Below, in pieces: positions 9-17,889 of a stretch of DNA of 22,509 nt. Position numbers and translations under genes: made by a program. How positions within the stretch are numbered: the stretch's first letter is position 1; each line of letters begins with the position of its first letter. This DNA is from a virus. The DNA is taken from positions 1 through 22,509 of the IMG/VR virus record IMGVR_UViG_3300011116_001278; one strand, given 5' to 3'. The notes beneath the pieces were generated by a model. It had not been told where the DNA came from and did not search any database. It was given only the letters and a program-made list of their open reading frames with translations.

Positions 9-1148
9 TCACGATATCTCCTTGATCTTTGCGCGAAGGTTTCCAATACCCGTAACAGGAATGCTTGCTGCGATTGAGCTTAACTCATCAACCGCAGACT
101 TTTCACAGGTAAAGACAAGAGCATCGTGTATGACACCCTTTTTCGATATCTCAACACCAGCACTTCTCGACATTCTGTCAAACTCTCTAAATGCAAGAAG
201 AGCTGCATCGACGCCAGTAGACTGAAGGTAGTAGTTGATAAGAGGAGAATCTTCTTGTGCAGTAATCCTTCTGCCGTAGAAGTTCTTGATATATCCTCCA
301 GAGGATTCTGCACGAAGCTTGACAAGCAGACCGGGAATGTTGAGGTAAGACCTAACATCTCCCAAGACTCTCTTTGCATCGACGCCCTTTGGGAGTTTCT
401 GAGCAAGCTTTTGTGCTGATATTCCGTATATCGCACATATCGTTGTGACCTTAGCCTCAGGGCGTCCTACATGTCCGCTTAGTACCTTCTCGCTGATGTG
501 TGTGTAGACATCATCTGGACATCTCTGTCCATCTATCAGAAGTGCAAGAGTGGGCTCGAGTGCAACCATGTCTATCTGGTAGACCCCTCTCGTGCTAGTC
601 TCAGGAAGAATTATCTTTCTAAGATCTTTGCGCAATCTTGTGATGTCTGGTCCTTCCGTGACACTCATTCTTCCTGTCACAGCAGCGAACCTGTCATATC
701 TAGGGATTCCTCCCTCTCTGAATGAGTCTAGCACACCTGAACTATCACTGGTTTCTTTCAGGATTTTTTCATCAATATCCATCTTCTCTAGTGAGAAGAG
801 AACCTCATTTCCTTGAGGAAATATCAGTTTCTCGTAATCTGAGGATGCATCCCATGCCTTTTTGACAAAATCTACAAGCTTTGAGACGTATTTCTTGCTC
901 TCTTCAGCAGGTAGCATCTGAGCCCATGCAGGATTTTTACTTGATATTTCCCGAGACAGATTCTGAAACCTTTCTGGTACCTGAGGTGTCTTTATCGACA
1001 TTAGTCTTGCAGTATCTTCTATGCTACGGACACTGCTGTGCACACACCACGAAGCATGCTCGTGAGATGTCACAAATAGACCTGTGTCAGTATCTACGTG
1101 AAGGTTTTTCTTCAGGCCTGTTTTAGATGAGCAGATGCAGATTAGCAT
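9..1148 (-). CDS. Stand-alone family A DNA polymerase core (palm and fingers)
   Basis: A 379-residue protein carrying the ordered polymerase motifs of family A (E. coli Pol I type). TGR at 158-160 matches the Arg668 motif of Pol I. Motif A is at 191-200, with D193 as the metal-binding Asp and E198 at the steric-gate Glu position. The finger O-helix is at 229-242 with R229, K233, I237, Y241 and G242. Motif C is at 340-345 with H341 and D342. Two positions differ from the family norm: I237 replaces Phe762 of Pol I, and A343 replaces the Glu of HDE. There is no 3'-5' or 5'-3' exonuclease domain, and only about 150 residues precede the TGR motif. Expected role is template-directed DNA synthesis in phage replication or repair. 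It is the last gene after the hub gene, with a 51-base gap. The ATG at 1148 follows an in-frame stop two codons upstream, and no clear Shine-Dalgarno is visible. Family assignment is firm; the exact role and activity are inferred. Confidence 0.85.
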   Translation of the reverse strand: MLICICSSKTGLKKNLHVDTDTGLFVTSHEHASWCVHSSVRSIEDTARLMSIKTPQVPERFQNLSREISSKNPAWAQMLPAEESKKYVSKLVDFVKKAWDASSDYEKLIFPQGNEVLFSLEKMDIDEKILKETSDSSGVLDSFREGGIPRYDRFAAVTGRMSVTEGPDITRLRKDLRKIILPETSTRGVYQIDMVALEPTLALLIDGQRCPDDVYTHISEKVLSGHVGRPEAKVTTICAIYGISAQKLAQKLPKGVDAKRVLGDVRSYLNIPGLLVKLRAESSGGYIKNFYGRRITAQEDSPLINYYLQSTGVDAALLAFREFDRMSRSAGVEISKKGVIHDALVFTCEKSAVDELSSIAASIPVTGIGNLRAKIKEIS

Positions 1149-7928: not shown

Positions 7929-8079
7929 CCTCGTCTCCTAATAGACTAATTATCATCTCTGCAATATCATCAGAAGACAGAGATGAAAGAGACGCCTCTA
8001 GATGCTGAATGCCCCTGAGTGCTTCTTCTCTTTCATCTAGAGTGAGCGATGATAGTAGTTCATCTAGATTAAATTTCAT
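7909..8079 (-). CDS. Small acidic helical protein, overlapping both neighbours
   Basis: A 56-residue frame (MKFNLDELLSSLTLDEREEA at its start, ending DEQRDT). It begins at an ATG in an ATGA overlap with the tape-measure stop, with GAGG just upstream, and ends 20 bases inside the start of the large baseplate gene. The sequence is acidic, with regular Leu/Ile spacing, and probably forms two or three helices. The tight coupling on both sides argues that it is translated. I do not recognise the family. A small chaperone or adaptor for the tape measure or baseplate would fit the position, but that is a guess. Confidence 0.65.
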   Translation of the reverse strand: MKFNLDELLSSLTLDEREEALRGIQHLEASLSSLSSDDIAEMIISLLGDEDEQRDT

Positions 8080-10115
8080 GGTCCCTCTACAGATCCACCA
8101 GTGAGCCCGGGAAGATCTTTCACGGGAACCTCTCTCTCAGTTCCCCCTGTTACTTCATAAGCCCTTATAGCCTTCGCAGTATTTTCGTCTAGAACTATCT
8201 TGATAACCCTCGTAGAGCCCGCAGGGCCCGGGACTTGCATTTCTCGTGTAGTCGTTCCTGTGAGGTTAGCAGCAGGAACCTGAGGTGCGGGCGTCGGAGC
8301 AGCAGGAACTGGGGTTGTAGCGGGTACCTCAGGTGCTACTGGTGCTGCTGCGACTGCAGCTTGAGCACTTGGGCCTAGTCCAGTCAATATCCTTAGATCT
8401 GCGACTGCTGTTTGAAGTTTTTCACCTATCGCTTTCGCTGTGAGATCTCCCTCTTTCAAGGGTTCCGTTACTGCGCTCTTAAGTGCTTGCAGGACTACAG
8501 TAGCAGGACCTTTTACCTTGTCTGCAAGATTATCAGTGAGGTTTTGAACCGCTTCTCCAGACTGCTGGCTCAGCTGCCCCATTGCCTCAGTCGCTATCCT
8601 TCCAGAAGCTGCGTTCATCTTAGCAGTCGCAGCAGCTGCTGCTTGCTCTAGTGGATCTGTGAGAACAGCTGAGAGGTCTTTGATTGCTTCCTTGAAACCG
8701 TCAGTAGCATTGAGAATAGCCTGCTCTGTCGAGATCTGCGTCTTCTCGTTCATCGCCTCGAGGCCTTCTCCAAGTGGCCCAAAGATCCTATCAACGTTTT
8801 CTACTCCGATTCCGCTTAGAGAATCAGATATTAGTCTCTTCTGAGCCAGGGACATGTTTTTCATGTCGATTCCAGCATCTTCAAAGGCTTCACGTAGAGT
8901 GATAAGAACCTGTTCTTGATCCTCGTTCGCCTGGTACATCAACTCCATTGCATCGAGGTTGACGCCAAAAGCTGCAGTCAATTTTCCTACGTTTGAAGCT
9001 GCACTTTCAAATCCCTGAAAACCACCCACTACCTGGTCTAGCTGCCTGAAATCGATTCCTAGCTTGAGAACTTGCGCAGAGATTCTTGCAGCAGCAGCAG
9101 AACCTACGTTGCCAAATCGCTCAGTACTCTCCATGATCTCTGCCATTATTGGCATCAGCTGCTTGGCGTGGACTCCCATGGCACTGCCTGCAGCTTGAGC
9201 AGCAGCGGTAGACTGCCTTAGAAGATCAGTGTTGGCTTTGCCTGTTCTCTCTACACTCCTGGAAATAAATGTCGCGAGCTGATCAGTTCGCAAACCGAAA
9301 GCTTTTCCTGCTAGGACAAGCTCCTGAGATATGACTTCTCCGCCATCTTTCGCAGCCTCTTGCGCGAGAAGAAGGCCGTTGCGAGAATCATTCATAATCT
9401 CTTGTACGAAGTTCTCGTAGTCTCGCAGGTAGCCCTTTGAAAGTGTCCCGATCGCCTGCCCGTTTACCTTGTAGACTTCACCAGCGTTATTTGCAGCTGC
9501 ATCCAGGTATTTCTGAAATGCTAGGTTTGCGTTTGCTGCAGCAGTGTTCGTTGTATCGGTAATGTTTCCGATCTGTCCGCCAAATTTTCCCTGTATTTCC
9601 TGAAAATACCCTGCAGTCTCACCTGCGAGCTGCTGGAATACCGGAAACATTAGCTTTGATCTCGCTACTTCTGCAATGTCACCGGCATTCTTCGATATAA
9701 AATCAGCTCCTTTTGCATAGTAGTTCGATATATCGAACATCTCGCCTATCTTTGCCGATCCATCTTTTAGAAATTCAACGAGGTCTCTTGCACCCTTGGC
9801 TAGAGCAGGGTCAAGGCCCTCGGCTGTCGCAAGCATTCCCTCGAGAGTTTCTGCAGCCTTGTCTATTGACTCTCTATAGACCTTTGATGCTTTGGCAGCA
9901 GCTTCTTGAAAATCTGCTGTCGACCTCGCTGTCTTCTCTTGCCTGCTAGCTGCATCAGAGTCTTCTTCGTCTTCGACGTCATAGCCCCCCGCCCTGCGGG
10001 AGGTGCGACCTCCGGACCCTGTACCGCCTTCCTCGACAAGGTCTTCGATACGCTCTACATGCTTGGCAATCTTGTTCAGAACCTCTGTGTAGTCTTCTGC
10101 CAAAGGATCCTCCAT
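8076..10115 (-). CDS. Tail tape measure protein
   Basis: A 679-residue, mostly helical, Ala/Gly-rich protein. Residues 1-60 are charged with an acidic stretch (about 45-53). Residues 60-575 are long predicted helices, including a segment at 360-450 with ANEDQEQVLITLREAFEDAG that looks like tape-measure proteins of T4-like myoviruses. A Pro/Ala linker spans about 578-616, followed by a short C-terminal domain. It should run inside the tail tube and set its length. At about 1.5 angstrom per helical residue it would suit a tail near 100 nm, a rough inference. Its place, after tube and gp26-like genes and before the baseplate genes, fits. No convincing Shine-Dalgarno precedes the ATG, and the start codon sits at the edge of a hairpin. 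An in-frame stop lies four codons upstream, so no earlier start is possible. No membrane segment or peptidase motif was seen. Confidence 0.75.
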   Translation of the reverse strand: MEDPLAEDYTEVLNKIAKHVERIEDLVEEGGTGSGGRTSRRAGGYDVEDEEDSDAASRQEKTARSTADFQEAAAKASKVYRESIDKAAETLEGMLATAEGLDPALAKGARDLVEFLKDGSAKIGEMFDISNYYAKGADFISKNAGDIAEVARSKLMFPVFQQLAGETAGYFQEIQGKFGGQIGNITDTTNTAAANANLAFQKYLDAAANNAGEVYKVNGQAIGTLSKGYLRDYENFVQEIMNDSRNGLLLAQEAAKDGGEVISQELVLAGKAFGLRTDQLATFISRSVERTGKANTDLLRQSTAAAQAAGSAMGVHAKQLMPIMAEIMESTERFGNVGSAAAARISAQVLKLGIDFRQLDQVVGGFQGFESAASNVGKLTAAFGVNLDAMELMYQANEDQEQVLITLREAFEDAGIDMKNMSLAQKRLISDSLSGIGVENVDRIFGPLGEGLEAMNEKTQISTEQAILNATDGFKEAIKDLSAVLTDPLEQAAAAATAKMNAASGRIATEAMGQLSQQSGEAVQNLTDNLADKVKGPATVVLQALKSAVTEPLKEGDLTAKAIGEKLQTAVADLRILTGLGPSAQAAVAAAPVAPEVPATTPVPAAPTPAPQVPAANLTGTTTREMQVPGPAGSTRVIKIVLDENTAKAIRAYEVTGGTEREVPVKDLPGLTGGSVEGP

Positions 10116-10136
10116 GTGTAAGTATCAAGGAGGATC
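10106..10136 (-). promoter_or_regulatory. Hairpin over the tape-measure start codon
   Basis: The mRNA can fold GATCCTCC (10136-10129) with GGAGGATC (10113-10106), a perfect 8-bp stem with a 15-base loop. The stem covers the stop codon of the frameshifted extension on one side. On the other side it covers the last base of the tape-measure ATG and the codons after it. With no visible Shine-Dalgarno, tape-measure translation may depend on ribosomes that terminate at the extension and open the stem. The pairing is seen; the function is inference. Confidence 0.45.
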
Positions 10137-11212
10137 ACTTATCGAACTTCTTCATCATGTTGCTCGTGAATCTATCGATGTCCCTGACAGAGGGTGCTTC
10201 CGTAGTCTCTTTCTTCTCGTGAGCCTTCTTGATTTCTTCAAAGTCTTTAATCAGCCTGTTTATAAGCCAGCGTCTGTACGGGATTGGCATTGCTCGAACC
10301 TCGTTCCAGGAAACGTTGAGGTTCTTAACCAGAGCGTAGTGCTCTTCGAGAACGTTCTCGATGTGGTCAATCCCGAGGCCAAAAAAAGGACGCCCCCATT
10401 GGGAGTGAGATCTCTGATGATGTAGAGCAGTGCGGGCATTTCATCTCTGTTGTCATGTCTATGCCGGGCTCGTTATCGTCCATGTACTTTCGAAGCTTTC
10501 TAGAATCAAGAGCGGGCATGGAGCGAACGAAGAGTGAGATCTCGTTTCTATCAGTCACGCCGTCAACTGACAGTATGCTTCTCTCCAAGCGAGTCGTGAC
10601 GTTATTCTCAAGTAGCATATCGGGCATTAGCTGCTTCTTGCGCTCATTTACCGTCGAAATCTCTTCCTCGTCTTCACCAGTTAGAAATCTAAACTGTACA
10701 AGCCTGCCACTCACTGGCAGCCTGTAATCGAAGCAGTTTTGCCACTGCCTAGAGGGCTCTATCTGGAGACGCTTTATTCCTAGGTTTGTTAGGTCAAACT
10801 TCTGAGTGGACTCTTTGTTGCACGAAGGACAGGTGGACTTCGCGCTGTAGTCAGATCCGTATCCTGTGATTCTAACAGAAACCATCAGAGCGTTTCTATC
10901 TCCGATGAGCATCTTCTGGACCGAGATGTCCTTGTTGACCAAGCACGATGCTATAAGGTGAGTTATCACAGTTCCCTGCTTGATCAGGGCCTTTGATGTT
11001 AGAATGTCCTCTTCCTTTGCGGTCATTGCCTTGATCTCAATCAGCTCCTTTCCGTGTAGAGGACTATCAGGAGGATAGACTGATCCACGGGAGGGTACTG
11101 GTACTGCCTCGACTGGAACTTCCCAAGATATGCTTCTATTCTGCTGGTGCTGCTGCTGTTGCGCACTAGTCCTGTCATTCTTGAAAATATCGTTCTTGCC
11201 TTCTCTAGCCAT
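10135..11212 (-). CDS. Frameshifted long form: gp26-like protein plus 81-residue extension
   Basis: A second frame overlaps the end of the 281-residue gene and continues to a TGA at 10135-10137. It encodes a clean 81-residue stretch starting GLGIDHIENVLEEHYALVKN and containing MPIPYRRWLINRLIKDFEE. This frame is open only from 10440 and has no ATG, GTG or TTG until an ATG 30 codons into the extension, so it can hardly be an independent gene. Joining at the T7 run gives a product of about 358 residues (+1 shift) or 359 (-2 shift). The arrangement, short and long products between tube and tape measure, is that of tail assembly chaperones (lambda G/GT, Mu). The long form would bind the tape measure during assembly. 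The alternative is a one-base sequencing or assembly error in the homopolymer. Confidence 0.7.
10367..11212 (-). CDS. gp26 / T4_baseplate-family protein, probable tail assembly chaperone (short form)
   Basis: A 281-residue protein with a Gln-rich N-terminus (residues 18-25) and a KAMTAKEEDIL segment (61-71) typical of the T4 baseplate hub gp26 family. Two CxxC pairs, C128/C131 and C259/C262, could together bind one zinc. The C-terminus is LPMGASFFWPRD. T4 gp26 has been described as a baseplate hub component. The position between tube and tape measure, together with the frameshifted extension, instead suggests a chaperone of tape-measure assembly. The two ideas are compatible. The ATG at 11212 lies eight bases after a GAGGG that forms the 3' arm of the upstream terminator, so expression should be low. 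Family assignment is good; the chaperone role is inferred. Confidence 0.75.
   Translation of the reverse strand: MAREGKNDIFKNDRTSAQQQQHQQNRSISWEVPVEAVPVPSRGSVYPPDSPLHGKELIEIKAMTAKEEDILTSKALIKQGTVITHLIASCLVNKDISVQKMLIGDRNALMVSVRITGYGSDYSAKSTCPSCNKESTQKFDLTNLGIKRLQIEPSRQWQNCFDYRLPVSGRLVQFRFLTGEDEEEISTVNERKKQLMPDMLLENNVTTRLERSILSVDGVTDRNEISLFVRSMPALDSRKLRKYMDDNEPGIDMTTEMKCPHCSTSSEISLPMGASFFWPRD
10379..10390 (-). other. Putative +1 or -2 programmed frameshift site (T7 run)
   Basis: In the zero frame the codons are TCC TTT TTT TGG, followed by a TGA four codons after the second TTT. The peptidyl-tRNA on the second TTT can re-pair perfectly on TTT after moving +1 or -2 within the seven T residues; both put GGC next and enter the extension frame. 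A -1 shift enters a different frame that stops after about 40 codons and looks non-coding. A G5 run a few bases upstream could also allow a +1 slip. Confidence 0.6.
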
Positions 11213-11269: not shown

Positions 11270-11761
11270 CTAGAACTGGAGAGTACAAATATCGTAGCGA
11301 AGAGTTAGTGTGATGTTTGCAGCTTCTGATCCCTGGCTGTAGTCAAGATTGCTAAAGTTTGCGCTCGTGATGAATGCTCCTTTCATGTCCCAAAGTTCAA
11401 CAACAGTACCTATAGGGTCTAGCATCTTAATCTGACAATCTCTCTTATAGAAGTCAGCATATCCAGCACGACCTGATACTGACTCGTAGTGTGTTCTAAT
11501 CCACTCCATCACCTGCTGTGCTCCGGAAGGAGCGATAGGGTCGTGCAGGGTAATCTGCATTGTCTCGAAGGTTCCTCTTCCTGCAATGTAGCGAGTAGCG
11601 TTGATGTAAGGAATCGTAAGAACTTCGTGAGATATGGTGGGTCTTCCCGCTGATTTGAGAAGGAATGAGTCGATGCCCTCTAGCGCGAAGATCCACCTAA
11701 AAGAACGCTTCGGCTCAAACTTGTTGGGAAGCATATCTGTGACTGATAGGGTCTCTGCCAT
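11270..11761 (-). CDS. Tail tube protein (T4 gp19-like)
   Basis: A 163-residue protein, the same length as T4 gp19. Recognisable features are the FRWIFALEGIDSFLLKSAGRP start region (22-42), YIAGRGTFETMQITLHDPIAP (58-78), MEWIRTHYESVSGRAGYADF (85-104) and IGTVVELWDMKGAFI (116-130). It polymerises into the rigid inner tube through which DNA passes, inside the sheath. CAGGAGA precedes the ATG, and it follows the second sheath gene by 37 bases. The intrinsic terminator just after it fits a highly expressed gene that ends a strong transcript. Confidence 0.92.
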   Translation of the reverse strand: MAETLSVTDMLPNKFEPKRSFRWIFALEGIDSFLLKSAGRPTISHEVLTIPYINATRYIAGRGTFETMQITLHDPIAPSGAQQVMEWIRTHYESVSGRAGYADFYKRDCQIKMLDPIGTVVELWDMKGAFITSANFSNLDYSQGSEAANITLTLRYDICTLQF

Positions 11762-11798: not shown

Positions 11799-14762
11799 CT
11801 AGAATGTTCCCGCATTCCTAACTTCGAACGTAAGCGATACGAACTCGACTGATCTAGTTGGCTGTACATATATCTGTCCCCTGATCGTGTTGTTCTCGAT
11901 ATCTGCCTGTGTTGTGGTTGAAGTATCTATGACAACCTTGTAGCGATCGAGACCGCTTCTCTCCTGTATGCTCTGCATTATAGGATTGACCAGGCTGCTG
12001 AACCTCTGGAGAGTCTCTGCCCTGTTAGGCTCGAAGAGCAGGCTGTTTCCGACAGACCTGACAGCCCTTCTTATCTCAATGAGAAGCCTTCTGACGTTAA
12101 CTCTATCGAGTGCATTGGCAGCAACCTGCAATGTCTTCTGGCCCCACACTACGAACCCTGTTCCGTCGAACCTTGTGATCGGATTTATCCTTGAGCTGTA
12201 CAGATTGTCAAGGTTCTGCTTGTTGAGAGGAACCGTTGTCGAGACAGTTGTCGACAGAGCGCCTCTTGCAAATCCAGCGGGCGCGAACCACGGGAATGCT
12301 CTCGAGTCATTGAGTGAGAAAGCACCTAGAACTGCCACTGTTGCGGGAACAGTGACAAGCGTTGATGTCGTTGGGTCTGTCATGTTGACGTCTGGGAAGT
12401 AAGCTGCAGCGAAAGAGCTGTCGATGCCTCTTGCGTTGAATGCGTTCACTGTGTAATCAACGCTTGTCCTTTGTGCCGAAGAGGTGACGTAGAGATTTCT
12501 TGTGTCATAGTTGTCAACGTCCATGATGTACATGGCGTCAAATCTGCTCTCAACAGCTGAGATAGCGTAATCTGTAACGCTTGTATGCCTAATTCCTGGT
12601 ATTGCAAGGAGCTTGATGTCGAAATCAAATTTATTGTTGATTATATCGACCGCCTTGCGATATGCAGAGACAGTAGGTCCGTTTATTCCGCCCTGATTTG
12701 TAGAGTCATCGTTCTCTCTCTTGACAGCGGTATTTGATAGTGCTGACTTCTCTTTGTCAAATATGTTGACGCCATCAAATCCTCCCTGCATGAACACGGT
12801 GAACTTTGCGTACCTCCTGTTCGTCGAGTTCGAGAGATCCGATAGCTGTAGAGCTCTTGTCTTGTTGGCTTCGCTGACAGTGATATTTCCATTTCTTACG
12901 TACGATGCTGAGAGCCACTGATCAGGATCAGCTGCAGTATTAGAAGCCGTGACAACCTGTATCTTGTCGAGGCTGAAGAGGTTGTTGTTGAATCGATCTG
13001 AGTCCAGAATTGACCCATTGACGTCAGCAGCCCCTGCGTTGTTTCCAACTGAGAAATTGAGACCAGAGAGAGAGTATCCCGGGAAGTACTTTGTAAATCC
13101 GAGCATAGACCTGTCAAAGTAAGAGTCAGTATTGGGCTCGTCAACACTCTTCTTATAGTTGAACTGAACGCCCCAGTATAGAAGACTGTTGACAGTCTTG
13201 TTGGGGGTTAGGCCAGTCGCTATGTTGCTTCTCATTGGAACGGGAGGCTGCACCGCTCTATTAAGAGTGTCATTAACATTAAATCTGGTCGAATCTGTCA
13301 CATTTGTCAGCATTGTGCTTCCAGATGTCACAAGATGACTTGGTCCCCTGAACCCAAATGGAATCGCTGTCGAGGGAACGTTTTGATCTAGAACGTTGTC
13401 TGCAACAACTACTCTGATGTACTTGGATCTATTCGGGAAGTCTCCCTGAACAACCAGACGCTGAGAAGCATTTACCTTGTCGAAGTCGAAGAACGTCTTC
13501 TGGTTTCCTATGACTCGAGCGAAGAACTGAGGTGAGCTAGGATTCATGCTCAGGCCTCTCCACTCTTCCTTGTAAGAAACGTTCGAATCAGTATCTTCAA
13601 AATCTCTTACAACCAGATCAAACGTGCCGTACTGCGGGTTCGTTGTGCTAGGGTCAGGTGCAATGTTCTCTATTGATATCTTAAATGCAGTGTTTGCGAA
13701 AGCACCGTCAGAAATTGATTCAACCCTGAACAGGTCATATCTCGTACCACCGAAATCCTGCGATACGAAGAAGGGAGTTGAAGCAGCAGCAAACCTGTCT
13801 TCAAACTGTTCGTAGTTCGGTGATGTGCTGTTTGAAGCATTCCTTCCAAGAGATCCTGTTGTGAGGAATGCAAAATCCTGCAAACCTCTGCTTATTGATG
13901 TCTTGAAGGCACCCGATCCAGTGACAGCGGCTAGTGAAGTTGGAACATCAAATGCTGCATAGAGAAGGTGTCCTCTCGACTCGAGAAGAAGAGGATCTCT
14001 GTTGAAAGCGTTGTAAAAGTATGACTCGCTGTCGTTCGTGTCAAACGAAGCAGATATTGCTGTCGGCAAACCATCAGGAGATGAGAAACCATTCAGCAGC
14101 ATAACGAAACCTAGGGTGGAATCGTTGACTGATCCCGTTAGTCCGCCCTTTGATGGAGAAGTAGTGGCAGCAACGGATGTTGATGGAGCTCCTGAATCGG
14201 GTATGTTGTTGCCAGATAGGGAGAGGACGACTCCAGAAGCAGCCATCAGGACTCCCCTGATTATGGGTCGAGAAATGTTCTCGCCTGAGACCTGGATACC
14301 AGCTTCTGAGAATATCGTTGAACCTGCAGACTCAGACATGAAGCATCCTAGGAAGTAAGTCCTTCCAAGAGGTCCTCCATATACAGCAGATCTATTGTTG
14401 GAGACGTATCCGCTTGGCTGAACTATCTGGTCTCCGACTACGAATCCCGCCCTATTGACCTTTCCTGTCGAATCGTCTCTCTTCTTGCCATCACCTGCGC
14501 CTAGAACTCTCACAAATGTGCAAGACTGTGCATTCCTAAGCCACTCGGAAACAGCAAGGGGACCAAATTTTTCACCATCAGTGGCGCCAAATCTTTCGAA
14601 AAAGTCTCTGGTGCTTCCAACTGTAACAGGAACGAATGCTGGTCCAAGGTTAGACGTTCCTATCACTCCAGCTGGAATTCCAACTGGTTGTGCGGTGGCT
14701 ATAGTTGTAGAATCACGCTCGATCGCAGAAACTCCGGCGCTCGAGTAAACTACTTCGGCCAT
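11799..14762 (-). CDS. Tail sheath protein, second copy (T4 gp18-like)
   Basis: A 987-residue contractile sheath protein, against 659 for T4 gp18. The N-terminal linker region (1-95) has VGIPAGVIGTSNLGPAFVPV and then ERFG and EWLRNAQSCTFVRVLGAG, the standard start of the sheath fold. The C-terminal conserved domain (about 840-987) has RINPITRFDGTGFVVWGQKT and LDRVNVRRLLIEI, then a strand that hands over to the next subunit. The long middle holds the variable, surface-exposed insertions. It is clearly paralogous to the upstream sheath gene at both ends. TAGGAGAA precedes the ATG, with a 28-base gap to the other sheath gene, so both should be made at high level. Confidence 0.92.
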   Translation of the reverse strand: MAEVVYSSAGVSAIERDSTTIATAQPVGIPAGVIGTSNLGPAFVPVTVGSTRDFFERFGATDGEKFGPLAVSEWLRNAQSCTFVRVLGAGDGKKRDDSTGKVNRAGFVVGDQIVQPSGYVSNNRSAVYGGPLGRTYFLGCFMSESAGSTIFSEAGIQVSGENISRPIIRGVLMAASGVVLSLSGNNIPDSGAPSTSVAATTSPSKGGLTGSVNDSTLGFVMLLNGFSSPDGLPTAISASFDTNDSESYFYNAFNRDPLLLESRGHLLYAAFDVPTSLAAVTGSGAFKTSISRGLQDFAFLTTGSLGRNASNSTSPNYEQFEDRFAAASTPFFVSQDFGGTRYDLFRVESISDGAFANTAFKISIENIAPDPSTTNPQYGTFDLVVRDFEDTDSNVSYKEEWRGLSMNPSSPQFFARVIGNQKTFFDFDKVNASQRLVVQGDFPNRSKYIRVVVADNVLDQNVPSTAIPFGFRGPSHLVTSGSTMLTNVTDSTRFNVNDTLNRAVQPPVPMRSNIATGLTPNKTVNSLLYWGVQFNYKKSVDEPNTDSYFDRSMLGFTKYFPGYSLSGLNFSVGNNAGAADVNGSILDSDRFNNNLFSLDKIQVVTASNTAADPDQWLSASYVRNGNITVSEANKTRALQLSDLSNSTNRRYAKFTVFMQGGFDGVNIFDKEKSALSNTAVKRENDDSTNQGGINGPTVSAYRKAVDIINNKFDFDIKLLAIPGIRHTSVTDYAISAVESRFDAMYIMDVDNYDTRNLYVTSSAQRTSVDYTVNAFNARGIDSSFAAAYFPDVNMTDPTTSTLVTVPATVAVLGAFSLNDSRAFPWFAPAGFARGALSTTVSTTVPLNKQNLDNLYSSRINPITRFDGTGFVVWGQKTLQVAANALDRVNVRRLLIEIRRAVRSVGNSLLFEPNRAETLQRFSSLVNPIMQSIQERSGLDRYKVVIDTSTTTQADIENNTIRGQIYVQPTRSVEFVSLTFEVRNAGTF

Positions 14763-14790: not shown

Positions 14791-17700
14791 TCATGTGAAT
14801 GTCACGCCCGTGCTATCCACCACAAAGTTGACAACAATGAACTCGACAGCCCTTGTTGGCGCAACAATTATCTTGCAGTTAAGCCTGTTGCCGTTGATGT
14901 CGTCCTGGGTGTTATTGGTAGAGTCACAGACGATCTTGAACTGATCAACTCCCTGCTGACTCTGTATGAGTGATAGAGAAGGTGTGAGCCTCGAAACGAA
15001 AGCTGCCCTTGTTGAAGCGTTGTTCTGCTCAAAGACGAAGTCCAGTGCAGCTGTAGACGCTATTCTCTTCACCTCTAGAAGCATTCTACGAACATTGACC
15101 CTGTCGAGAGATGATCTCGCCATCTGCAGCGTCTTCTGTCCGAATATTACGAACCCTGCATTCGGGAAAGAAGCTATGGGATTGATTCTATTGGTGTATA
15201 GTCTGTCTCTGTCAGCACTGTTGAGTCTCACTGCTACGTTAGAGAAGTTCTCAAGAGCACCCCTGTTGAAACCTGCAGGAGCAAACCATGGGAAAGAGAC
15301 GCTGTCGTTGAATCCGAGTGCGCTAAGCGCAGCTACAGAAGCTGCAACCTGGACAGGTCTACCAGTGTTCTGGTCAACAACGGATACATCTGGGTAGTAT
15401 GTCGCGACGTAGGAGTTATTGTAAGCTCTCCCGGCAAATGAATTTATCGTCGCATTCGTATCTGGCCTCTTGCTGTTGTATGTGAACAGCCTGACGCCCT
15501 GATCGTCATACGATGGAATATCCATGAGGTATATTGCTTTGGAGTAATTCTCTGTTGCCTTTGAGACGTAGTCTGTAACAAAAGCATCCTTGATACCGGG
15601 TATTGCAAGGATATTGATGGTGGAAACAGATGGGTCCAGGATGATTGATGAAGCCACCTGGTAAGACTGCACGTATCCGTTGTTAGCACCAACGCCAGGA
15701 GTGAAAGCCGTTGAAAGTCCTATGTTGAGGCTAGCAACAGCTTTTCCTCCACTCTCAGAAGACGTAGCTTTGTCATTCATCAAGCTCATATCCTTATCAA
15801 GGATATTTGTCCCATCAAATCCACCGTAGAAGATGTTGGTGAACTTGTTGTAGCTCTGCAGTGCATTGAAATATACAGATGACGTCAGGGAGACTAGTGA
15901 TCCAAGTGTAAGTCTCTGGTTTGAACCATCAACAACTGTGCCATCCGATGTGCTAGGAGATGCGTTCCTGATGTATGCAGCTTCACGCATTATCTCATCA
16001 GCAGACCCTGTAAAGTAGCTGTTGACAGCAGACATTATTGTCCCGCCTGCAGGCTTGTTCATTGGAAGAGCAACCCTTGCAAGTGTGAACTTGTTATTGT
16101 TGAAGATGTCTGCGCCAGATCCCGTCACCAGGCTGTCCATCTTGTAGATGCCCAGGAACTTCGTGTAGTTGTCAACAGTCTCGTTCTTCTGATTAGATCC
16201 GTTTGACGCAAGGACTGCTGTCGGTGTCGTTGAAAACAGGGGAACTCTCTGGAACTTTACGCCCCAGTAGAGACGAGGATCTGCTAGCTCGTACGCACCA
16301 GGCTGTCCAACGAAGCCTCCTCCAGAGTTTACCTCTCCCTTCGTCACCTTGAACCTGAAGGGAAGAGGCGGAACAATTGATCCAAGGATTGCACCATTGC
16401 TAGAAGCGATAGCAGCAGTCCTGTTTATCGCAATGTCGCCAGTTCCCACGATGGAAGATATTGCACGAGTAGAATCTGTGAGAGAGTCACTTGTCTTTAT
16501 TGCTGGTATTCCTCTGAATCCGAATGGGAGTGCGCTGCTTGGGGTTACCTTTCTCTCGACTTCCTCGTTCATTACGACCCTTACGAACCTTGATACATTG
16601 GGGTATCTTCCCGATGTGATCAACCTCCTGTCCGAGTCTGACTCTGCATCAAAGTTGTAGAATACCTTGTTGTCACCTATGACTTTGGCAATGTAGTTGT
16701 CTGATGCTGGGTTCAGATCACATGGACCAAACTGCTCGAGGACAACCTGGTTCGCATCAGTGTCGTTGAAGTCTCTCACCTGAACATTGAAAGTTCCGTA
16801 AGGATTATTGGGATCCTCTGACTTTCTAATGCTGTTGATGGAGATCTTGAAACGAGTGTTTGCGTTTGCTCCGTCGCTTATCGTCTCAAAGTGGAATAGA
16901 TCGTATTCTCTCTGCGAGAAGGGCTGAGATATGAACGATGTTGTTCTCGGGGTTGTGTACCTGCTATCAAACCTTCCAAAGAGGTTGATAAATGTCTGTC
17001 CTGACTTGCTGTTAGTATTGGCAGACCCTGACAGAATTGCAACAGAGTTAGAATCCGTTGAAACAGCAGCTATCTCGTCTTCGACTGGGAAGTGAGCGAG
17101 AAGAAGGTGCTCGTCTCTCTGGAAATTGTAAGGATCTGTGTTGAGTATCTTCTGAATGTAGTTGTCGCTTGTCGGATCAAGAGATGCAGTGTATATCTTG
17201 ATGCCAGTCTTTCCCTCGGTGTTTCCAAACCCGGGAGAGCTGCTAGAGATGACAAGCTTGAAATTCAGGTACGTAGGAGCACCTGTCGTAGACCCGATGG
17301 ATGCAAGATCATCTGCAGTTGTAGCGGAGGAGTAGAACTGGTCGTGATCCATGACCTGGATTCTTGTTCCGGTAGCAGTAAGGACTATTCCTCGAATGAT
17401 ATTCGCGAAGCTGCTAGTAAGATTGTAGCTGCTGTTAGAGCTGAACTCTGGGTAGCCTACGCTTGCAGCTGCTGATACGAAGTGTTTAGCGGCAATAAAC
17501 TGAACACAACCCTTCTGCCTCTTATCGTCGTTAAATGCCTGGGATCCCTGAATAATGAATCCCGCGCCGGTCGTCGTGCCATATGTCTCTGTCGTCAGAA
17601 TGTCGCTGCTTGTTGAGTTCTTACCTGCACCAAGCATGCGGACGAAAGTGAGTGCTGACCTGTTTCTAAGAAACTCGGCAACAGCGTATGGTGCCATGTA

Positions 17701-17889
17701 GCTAGGGTCAAGCTCTCCAAACTGCGCTACAAACTCAGCGAAGCTTCCGACTGTCACGGGTACAAATGCTGGTCCCATCATGGACGAGCCAATCACTCCA
17801 GCAGGTACTCCTGTCACAGCTGCAGCGGCTGCCGGAGCTACAACTTCTGAATCAAAGAATCCTGGTGAGCTAAATGTTTGCTCTGCCAT
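14791..17889 (-). CDS. Tail sheath protein, first copy (T4 gp18-like)
   Basis: A 1032-residue sheath protein, the largest of the two. The N-terminus has VTGVPAGVIGSSMMGPAFVP, then EFLRNRSALTFVRMLGAG. The C-terminus (about 870-1032) has RINPIASFPNAGFVIFGQKT and LDRVNVRRMLLEVKR, then APTRAVEFIVVNFVV. These blocks align with the second sheath copy, while the middle insertions differ much more. The role is contraction of the outer tail cylinder. AAGGAGA lies six bases before the ATG, a near-ideal ribosome site. Whether both copies join one sheath, or serve as alternatives, cannot be told here. Confidence 0.92.
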   Translation of the reverse strand: MAEQTFSSPGFFDSEVVAPAAAAAVTGVPAGVIGSSMMGPAFVPVTVGSFAEFVAQFGELDPSYMAPYAVAEFLRNRSALTFVRMLGAGKNSTSSDILTTETYGTTTGAGFIIQGSQAFNDDKRQKGCVQFIAAKHFVSAAASVGYPEFSSNSSYNLTSSFANIIRGIVLTATGTRIQVMDHDQFYSSATTADDLASIGSTTGAPTYLNFKLVISSSSPGFGNTEGKTGIKIYTASLDPTSDNYIQKILNTDPYNFQRDEHLLLAHFPVEDEIAAVSTDSNSVAILSGSANTNSKSGQTFINLFGRFDSRYTTPRTTSFISQPFSQREYDLFHFETISDGANANTRFKISINSIRKSEDPNNPYGTFNVQVRDFNDTDANQVVLEQFGPCDLNPASDNYIAKVIGDNKVFYNFDAESDSDRRLITSGRYPNVSRFVRVVMNEEVERKVTPSSALPFGFRGIPAIKTSDSLTDSTRAISSIVGTGDIAINRTAAIASSNGAILGSIVPPLPFRFKVTKGEVNSGGGFVGQPGAYELADPRLYWGVKFQRVPLFSTTPTAVLASNGSNQKNETVDNYTKFLGIYKMDSLVTGSGADIFNNNKFTLARVALPMNKPAGGTIMSAVNSYFTGSADEIMREAAYIRNASPSTSDGTVVDGSNQRLTLGSLVSLTSSVYFNALQSYNKFTNIFYGGFDGTNILDKDMSLMNDKATSSESGGKAVASLNIGLSTAFTPGVGANNGYVQSYQVASSIILDPSVSTINILAIPGIKDAFVTDYVSKATENYSKAIYLMDIPSYDDQGVRLFTYNSKRPDTNATINSFAGRAYNNSYVATYYPDVSVVDQNTGRPVQVAASVAALSALGFNDSVSFPWFAPAGFNRGALENFSNVAVRLNSADRDRLYTNRINPIASFPNAGFVIFGQKTLQMARSSLDRVNVRRMLLEVKRIASTAALDFVFEQNNASTRAAFVSRLTPSLSLIQSQQGVDQFKIVCDSTNNTQDDINGNRLNCKIIVAPTRAVEFIVVNFVVDSTGVTFT

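Follow-up and report, generated by a model that had tools for sequence, protein, structure and literature searches.

A conserved frameshift in phage tail genes was reportedly described by Xu, Hendrix and Duda in 2004. In phage lambda, a short chaperone and its C-terminally extended form, gpG and gpGT, are produced from a single gene located before the tape measure gene (PMC5009743), the extension being reached through a -1 shift at a slippery heptamer. The same review names T4 as the exception to this conserved tail-gene frameshift and considers a +1 shift very likely for the tail chaperone of the archaeal myovirus HSTV-2 (PMC5009743). Phage Mu, also a myophage, produces its tail chaperone gpGT by a -2 shift. 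In T4, gp26 and gp51 are encoded by two genes on opposite strands, without frameshift. Both are treated as assembly chaperones in the T4 literature (PMC3004832) and, according to PMC10885494, they were recognized as the short and long tail assembly chaperones, carried on two genes, by Vladimirov, Gautam and Davidson in 2022 (PMID 34826709). For cyanophages, a comparison published in 2010 found a gp51 reduced to ~20% of the T4 length and devoid of its first ~200 residues (PMC3037559).

Here, we present the analysis of a tail gene from a 22.5-kb virus contig (22,509 nt, hereafter the window), whose contractile-tail module is located on the minus strand. Judging from its sequence, the product of this locus is very probably a tail assembly chaperone related to T4 gp26 and gp51, with a short form read in the zero frame and a long form obtained by +1 frameshifting. 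As in T4, the proteins belong to the family PF12322, the short form resembling gp26 and the long form, with its C-terminal extension, gp51, but a single gene and a +1 shift are found here in place of two genes. As in lambda, a short and a C-extended chaperone would arise from one gene preceding the tape measure, although the lambda shift is -1 and its proteins belong, by sequence, to another family. The Kyanoviridae cyanophages share both the family and the order of the short form and the extension domain, but with the extension in the -1 frame, following T TTT TTC. The extension of Mu gpGT occupies the same relative frame as here, whereas its -2 direction is excluded at this locus by natural TTC TTT TGG variants. 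HSTV-2 likewise concerns a myovirus tail chaperone with a +1 shift deduced from sequence.

Organization of the locus

The zero-frame ORF of 281 codons ends with TCC TTT TTT TGG CCT CGG GAT TGA, and its T7 run (10381-10387) is the only one on the minus strand. The +1 frame is open through this region and over 81 codons past the slip, an openness reached in 0.4% of base-shuffled trials, and it contains no ATG, GTG or TTG in its overlap with the zero frame or before codon +30 (Table 1). The frames, T7 run, lengths and lack of a start given in the preliminary description were right in every detail checked.

The gene sits between the tail tube gene and the tape measure gene, the latter being named by synteny only: for the downstream 679-aa protein itself, neither Pfam nor PHROG gave a name. 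The tail tube gene was found upstream in 194 related loci and, downstream of the extension, 150 of 153 loci have an ORF of 250 codons or more. Elsewhere in the window, two full-length tail sheath paralogues of 987 and 1032 aa, 34% identical, stand in tandem on the minus strand (11799-14762 and 14791-17889), and the C-terminal part of a family A DNA polymerase (9-1148, minus strand) lies directly after the tail module.

Table 1. Coordinates of the features of the chaperone locus and its neighbours in the window
Feature	Position	Strand	Basis
Putative short form (TAC-N), 281 aa, PF12322/gp26-like, two CxxC pairs	10367..11212	-	Pfam T4_baseplate 2e-19; PHROG 150 8e-22; AF2 pLDDT 90.5
Shift site TTT TTT TGG; proposed P-site TTT 10382-10384 and A-site TGG 10379-10381	10379..10387	-	Motif in 256/266 distinct loci
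+1-frame extension (predicted long-form C-terminal domain), 81 codons; stop 10135-10137	10138..10380	-	Conserved in homologues; dN/dS; gp51/cyanophage profile match
Entire +1-frame open stretch, 101 codons, including the zero-frame overlap	10138..10440	-	Frame reading
Palindrome CGAGAACGTTCTCG, ~20 nt 3' of the shift site; possible 3' hairpin, in this phage only	10347..10360	-	Folding
Tail tube (gp19-like), upstream gene	11270..11761	-	Pfam Phage_T4_gp19
679-aa protein in tape-measure position, downstream gene	8076..10115	-	Gene order shared with the annotated tape measures of immuto and LIS04

Conservation of the shift site and the extension

Homologues were gathered with the zero-frame protein alone, so that the region downstream of it provides independent evidence. 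A first set comprised 211 distinct loci, extended to 266 by a further set. The motif (TTT/TTC/CTT)(TTT/CTT)TGG occurs shortly 5' of the stop in 256 of the 266, with a C-terminal TGG in 257, preceded by TTT TTT (183 loci), TTT CTT (58), TTC TTT (11), CTT TTT (3), TTC CTT (1) or TTT CTA (1). Nearly all motif-bearing loci run on into a conserved +1-frame extension of ~55-90 codons, and in the first set the median open length past the zero-frame stop was 66 codons in the +1 frame versus 12 in the other frame. The alignment of homologues proposed in the preliminary description bore out the recurrence of the overlapping frames and of the site (256/266), the T run itself being broken in 70 loci.

The extension evolves as a protein, under purifying selection in all pairs tested (dN/dS of 0.03-0.53 in 61/61 pairs of distinct loci), and its conservation reaches the shift site, its first two residues, G1 and L2, being more than 90% conserved. 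The P-site codon is able to re-pair one base forward and is kept beyond coding need. In the first set it is TTT (192 loci) or CTT (10) and never TTC, each time followed by T; all 192 P-site Phe codons are TTT, whereas 23% of the Phe codons elsewhere in these genes are TTC, a bias with a chance of ~1e-9 over 56 divergent clusters, if the clusters are independent. A scan of MAG contigs matched phage-like contigs only, most of them with the same shift site. A tblastn search with the window's extension alone, a short and divergent query, gave no phage match.

Protein family and predicted role

Pfam places the short form in PF12322 (T4_baseplate), the family of T4 gp26 and gp51, with a full-length match of 70.5 bits over residues 54-278 (cut-off 24.5; 2e-19), and it also matches PHROG 150 (8e-22). 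Among the 14 matching records, T4 carries two PF12322 genes and the other 13 one each. Aligning gp26 with gp51 revealed that gp51 consists of a gp26-like domain plus ~45 residues that start where gp26 ends. A profile of the extension matched the combined gp51 C-termini and cyanophage extensions (score 36, probability 83%, shuffled maximum 7.9), while its match to the gp51 C-termini alone was weak (probability 2%). At the level of sequence, the +1 extension and the C-terminal tail of T4 gp51 are thus homologous, with the cyanophage sequences as a bridge.

AlphaFold2 modelled the short form confidently (pLDDT 90.5) and the extension, modelled apart from it, as helical (pLDDT 89). The solved structure with the highest Foldseek probability was the HK97 tail assembly chaperone gp13 (2ob9), with a probability of 0.30, a non-significant E of 1.9 and a TM of 0.45 by target. 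Sequence search of solved structures gave no match for the short form and chance-level matches for the extension. The extension also matched NBD94, below cut-off, and DUF6760, weakly, the latter nevertheless recurring in 27 of 53 members. If the two forms act like lambda gpG/gpGT, the tape measure would be bound by the region common to both, and tail-tube subunits would be recruited by the extension.

A frameshift in a gp26-like gene giving a short and a long chaperone, as put forward in the preliminary description, is strongly supported by features visible in the sequences themselves: both frames, the conserved site, the selection acting on the extension, the synteny, and the homology with gp26 and T4 gp51.

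Alternative explanations

A single ordinary gene with a miscounted T could underlie the two frames, homopolymer runs being error-prone and the window being a metagenome contig. However, the identical frame arrangement is found in about 255 distinct loci and in the completed genomes of the cultured phages immuto, Mel-JY01 and RM378, and persists where the T run is broken (TTT CTT TGG in 58 loci, TTC TTT TGG in 11); these relatives refute a sequencing or assembly error, whose likelihood is negligible. Broken runs also bear on transcriptional slippage, which would generate mRNAs one U short. Bacterial RNA polymerases are known to slip on T runs of this kind and the window does contain a T7, but 70 loci with runs of just 3-4 T retain the extension frame, which makes this origin extremely unlikely. 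The preliminary description had left +1 and -2 shifts side by side. A programmed -2 shift, as in Mu, results in the same frame, and in TTT TTT TGG a P-site tRNA moved by -2 pairs perfectly. In the 11 TTC TTT TGG loci, however, the -2 codon is TCT, with a mispaired middle base, and GXN1 (TTC TTT CGT) and BRock (CTG TTT CGC) also forbid it. Because -2 re-pairing fails in these 11 natural variants, the direction would be +1, which upholds the first half of the earlier proposal and leaves the second highly improbable.

Another possibility is that the extension forms a separate small gene, translated independently or by reinitiation from its own start. GenBank does annotate small separate ORFs at this place, and two loci (L262 and L267) carry an ATG just past the stop, in the frame of the extension. 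Nevertheless, the window has no start before codon +30, a point already within the domain that is conserved; of 89 non-redundant loci, 32 lack any start codon ahead of codon +14; a start combined with an SD-like sequence occurs in 13 of the 89 only, at scattered positions; and conservation continues as far as the shift site, at G1 and L2. We consider this very unlikely and, like the -2 shift and transcriptional slippage, an independent start was tested and rejected as a general explanation. Finally, the frameshift could be real and the protein a structural component of the baseplate hub, as the PHROG and GenBank annotations ("baseplate hub") imply, and as does genetic work placing gp26 in the hub that is cited in a T4 review (PMC3004832). 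Yet both gp26 and gp51 are listed in a table of that review as chaperones of hub assembly, with gp51 absent from the particle, and the position between tube and tape measure, together with the short/long pair, matches the chaperone pattern. A structural role is therefore unlikely, and the assembly chaperone remains our preferred reading.

Proposed mechanism of the +1 shift

A short and a long form are both predicted from the sequence. Most ribosomes would remain in the zero frame and stop four codons past the slippery codons, yielding the 281-aa short form. Where the P site holds UUU or CUU and the next base is U, the tRNA would move one base forward and re-pair, a slip that a slow zero-frame UGG in the A site would trigger; GGC would then enter the A site, and 81 more codons would lead to a 358-aa long form. 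In prfB, the P-site tRNA on CUU U moves one base forward and re-pairs. In E. coli prfB (CUU UGA) and influenza PA-X (UCC UUU CGU; PMC3498833), a tRNA on CUU or UUU slips by +1 in the P site while the A-site codon is decoded slowly, the latter site being resembled by the UUU CGU and UUU CGC of GXN1 and BRock. At the present site the A-site codon is a sense codon, nearly invariant as UGG across loci, and in the tail genes of the window UGG is four times rarer than GGC (4.0 versus 16.4 per 1000 codons). Codon use thus fits slippage at a slow A site, the kinetics being conjectural. The occurrence and efficiency of slippage in vivo, like its triggering by a slow UGG and the function of the protein as a chaperone in this phage, are inferred.

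A prfB-like SD stimulator was considered and rejected, no SD-like element being found in 82 of 89 loci. The 60 nt 3' of the site gave a fold z of -2.5 in the window, while the mean over 88 relatives was -0.49, versus -0.18 for a control stretch. No strong conserved RNA structure was found downstream of the site in these 88 relatives; conserved 3' structure is at most slight, and the palindrome of the window may be incidental.

Decoding strategies across relatives

In 75/75 distinct cyanophage-like loci, T TTT TTC is followed by the extension domain in the -1 frame. In their gp26 genes (L374-L453 and L273), this heptamer stands one or two codons 5' of the stop, with the gp51-like domain following in the -1 frame; the cyanophage gp51 would thus be short because it is the frameshifted (-1) tail of gp26. 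The -1 arrangement was also observed in 121Q, PA5oct, Desulfovibrio phage 7757 and LR756511, some of these relatives being jumbo phages. In the window, the extension is in the +1 frame and does not follow the X_XXY_YYZ pattern of -1 shifting. The +1 arrangement, found at TTT TTT TGG in RM378 and at TTT CTT TGG in immuto, also occurs at UUU followed by C or A in SP-15, GXN1, BRock, LIS04 and LR756508. A protein tree implies three changes for the +1 label and four for the -1 label, with long branches that leave the exact counts unsure.

In L262 (2227 onward) and L267 (2193 onward), the downstream domain, with about 25 extra N-terminal residues, lies in a different frame and begins at an ATG just past the short-form stop. 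Relatives with a downstream gene of its own start, named in the preliminary description as evidence against a frameshift, do therefore exist, but as an exceptional subclade nested within the +1 phages, next to immuto, and with the extension in a different frame. They represent a natural loss of the frameshift, which is no longer needed there. The recurring DUF6760 match led to injection-system-like loci of Bacteroidota with sheath and tube genes, where a gp26-like zinc domain and DUF6760 are joined in frame within a 255-aa ORF (a single ORF at L292:859-1626 and L293:859-1626). As a separate observation, the gene of cyanophage S-SCSM1 ends with TTT TTC GCT TAG like its kin, while its gp51-like domain (L272:3150-3374) occupies the +1 frame instead of the -1 frame, possibly owing to an internal start or an indel.

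It seems reasonably likely that a single chaperone family, always at the same gene position, switched its decoding strategy several times: +1 sites at YUU_UGG, with a sense codon and without SD element, as the standard across an abundant environmental clade; -1 sites (U_UUU_UUC) in the cyanophages as well as 121Q, PA5oct, Desulfovibrio phage 7757 and LR756511; the pair of genes of T4; a fusion in frame in the injection-system-like loci; and the split of L262 and L267. The +1 sites would then constitute a class of their own among bacterial recoding signals.

Known aspects and implications

Frameshifted tail chaperones and the identity of gp26/gp51 are already known: the link between the gp26 family and the chaperone system drawn in the preliminary description holds, but had been made by Vladimirov, Gautam and Davidson in 2022, according to PMC10885494. 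In the literature searched, where that study figured through papers citing it, we found no account of the +1 site, of its near-universality in the clade or of a change of direction within one family. The variety of recoding (+1, -1, two genes, fusion, separate start) appears to be the new part. Part of it may nonetheless be known, since PMC12846349 cites the same 2022 study for polyT -1 signals in T4-like phages.

The gene calls of many phage genomes would need correcting, the extension being missed or annotated as a hypothetical gene, and the site variants offer a natural series on which the determinants of +1 versus -1 slippage could be tested. Our results suggest that the two-gene solution of T4 is one of several, most environmental relatives frameshifting at the same gene position in two opposite directions; in a large environmental T4-like group, a single gene appears to yield a short and a long helper by skipping one base.
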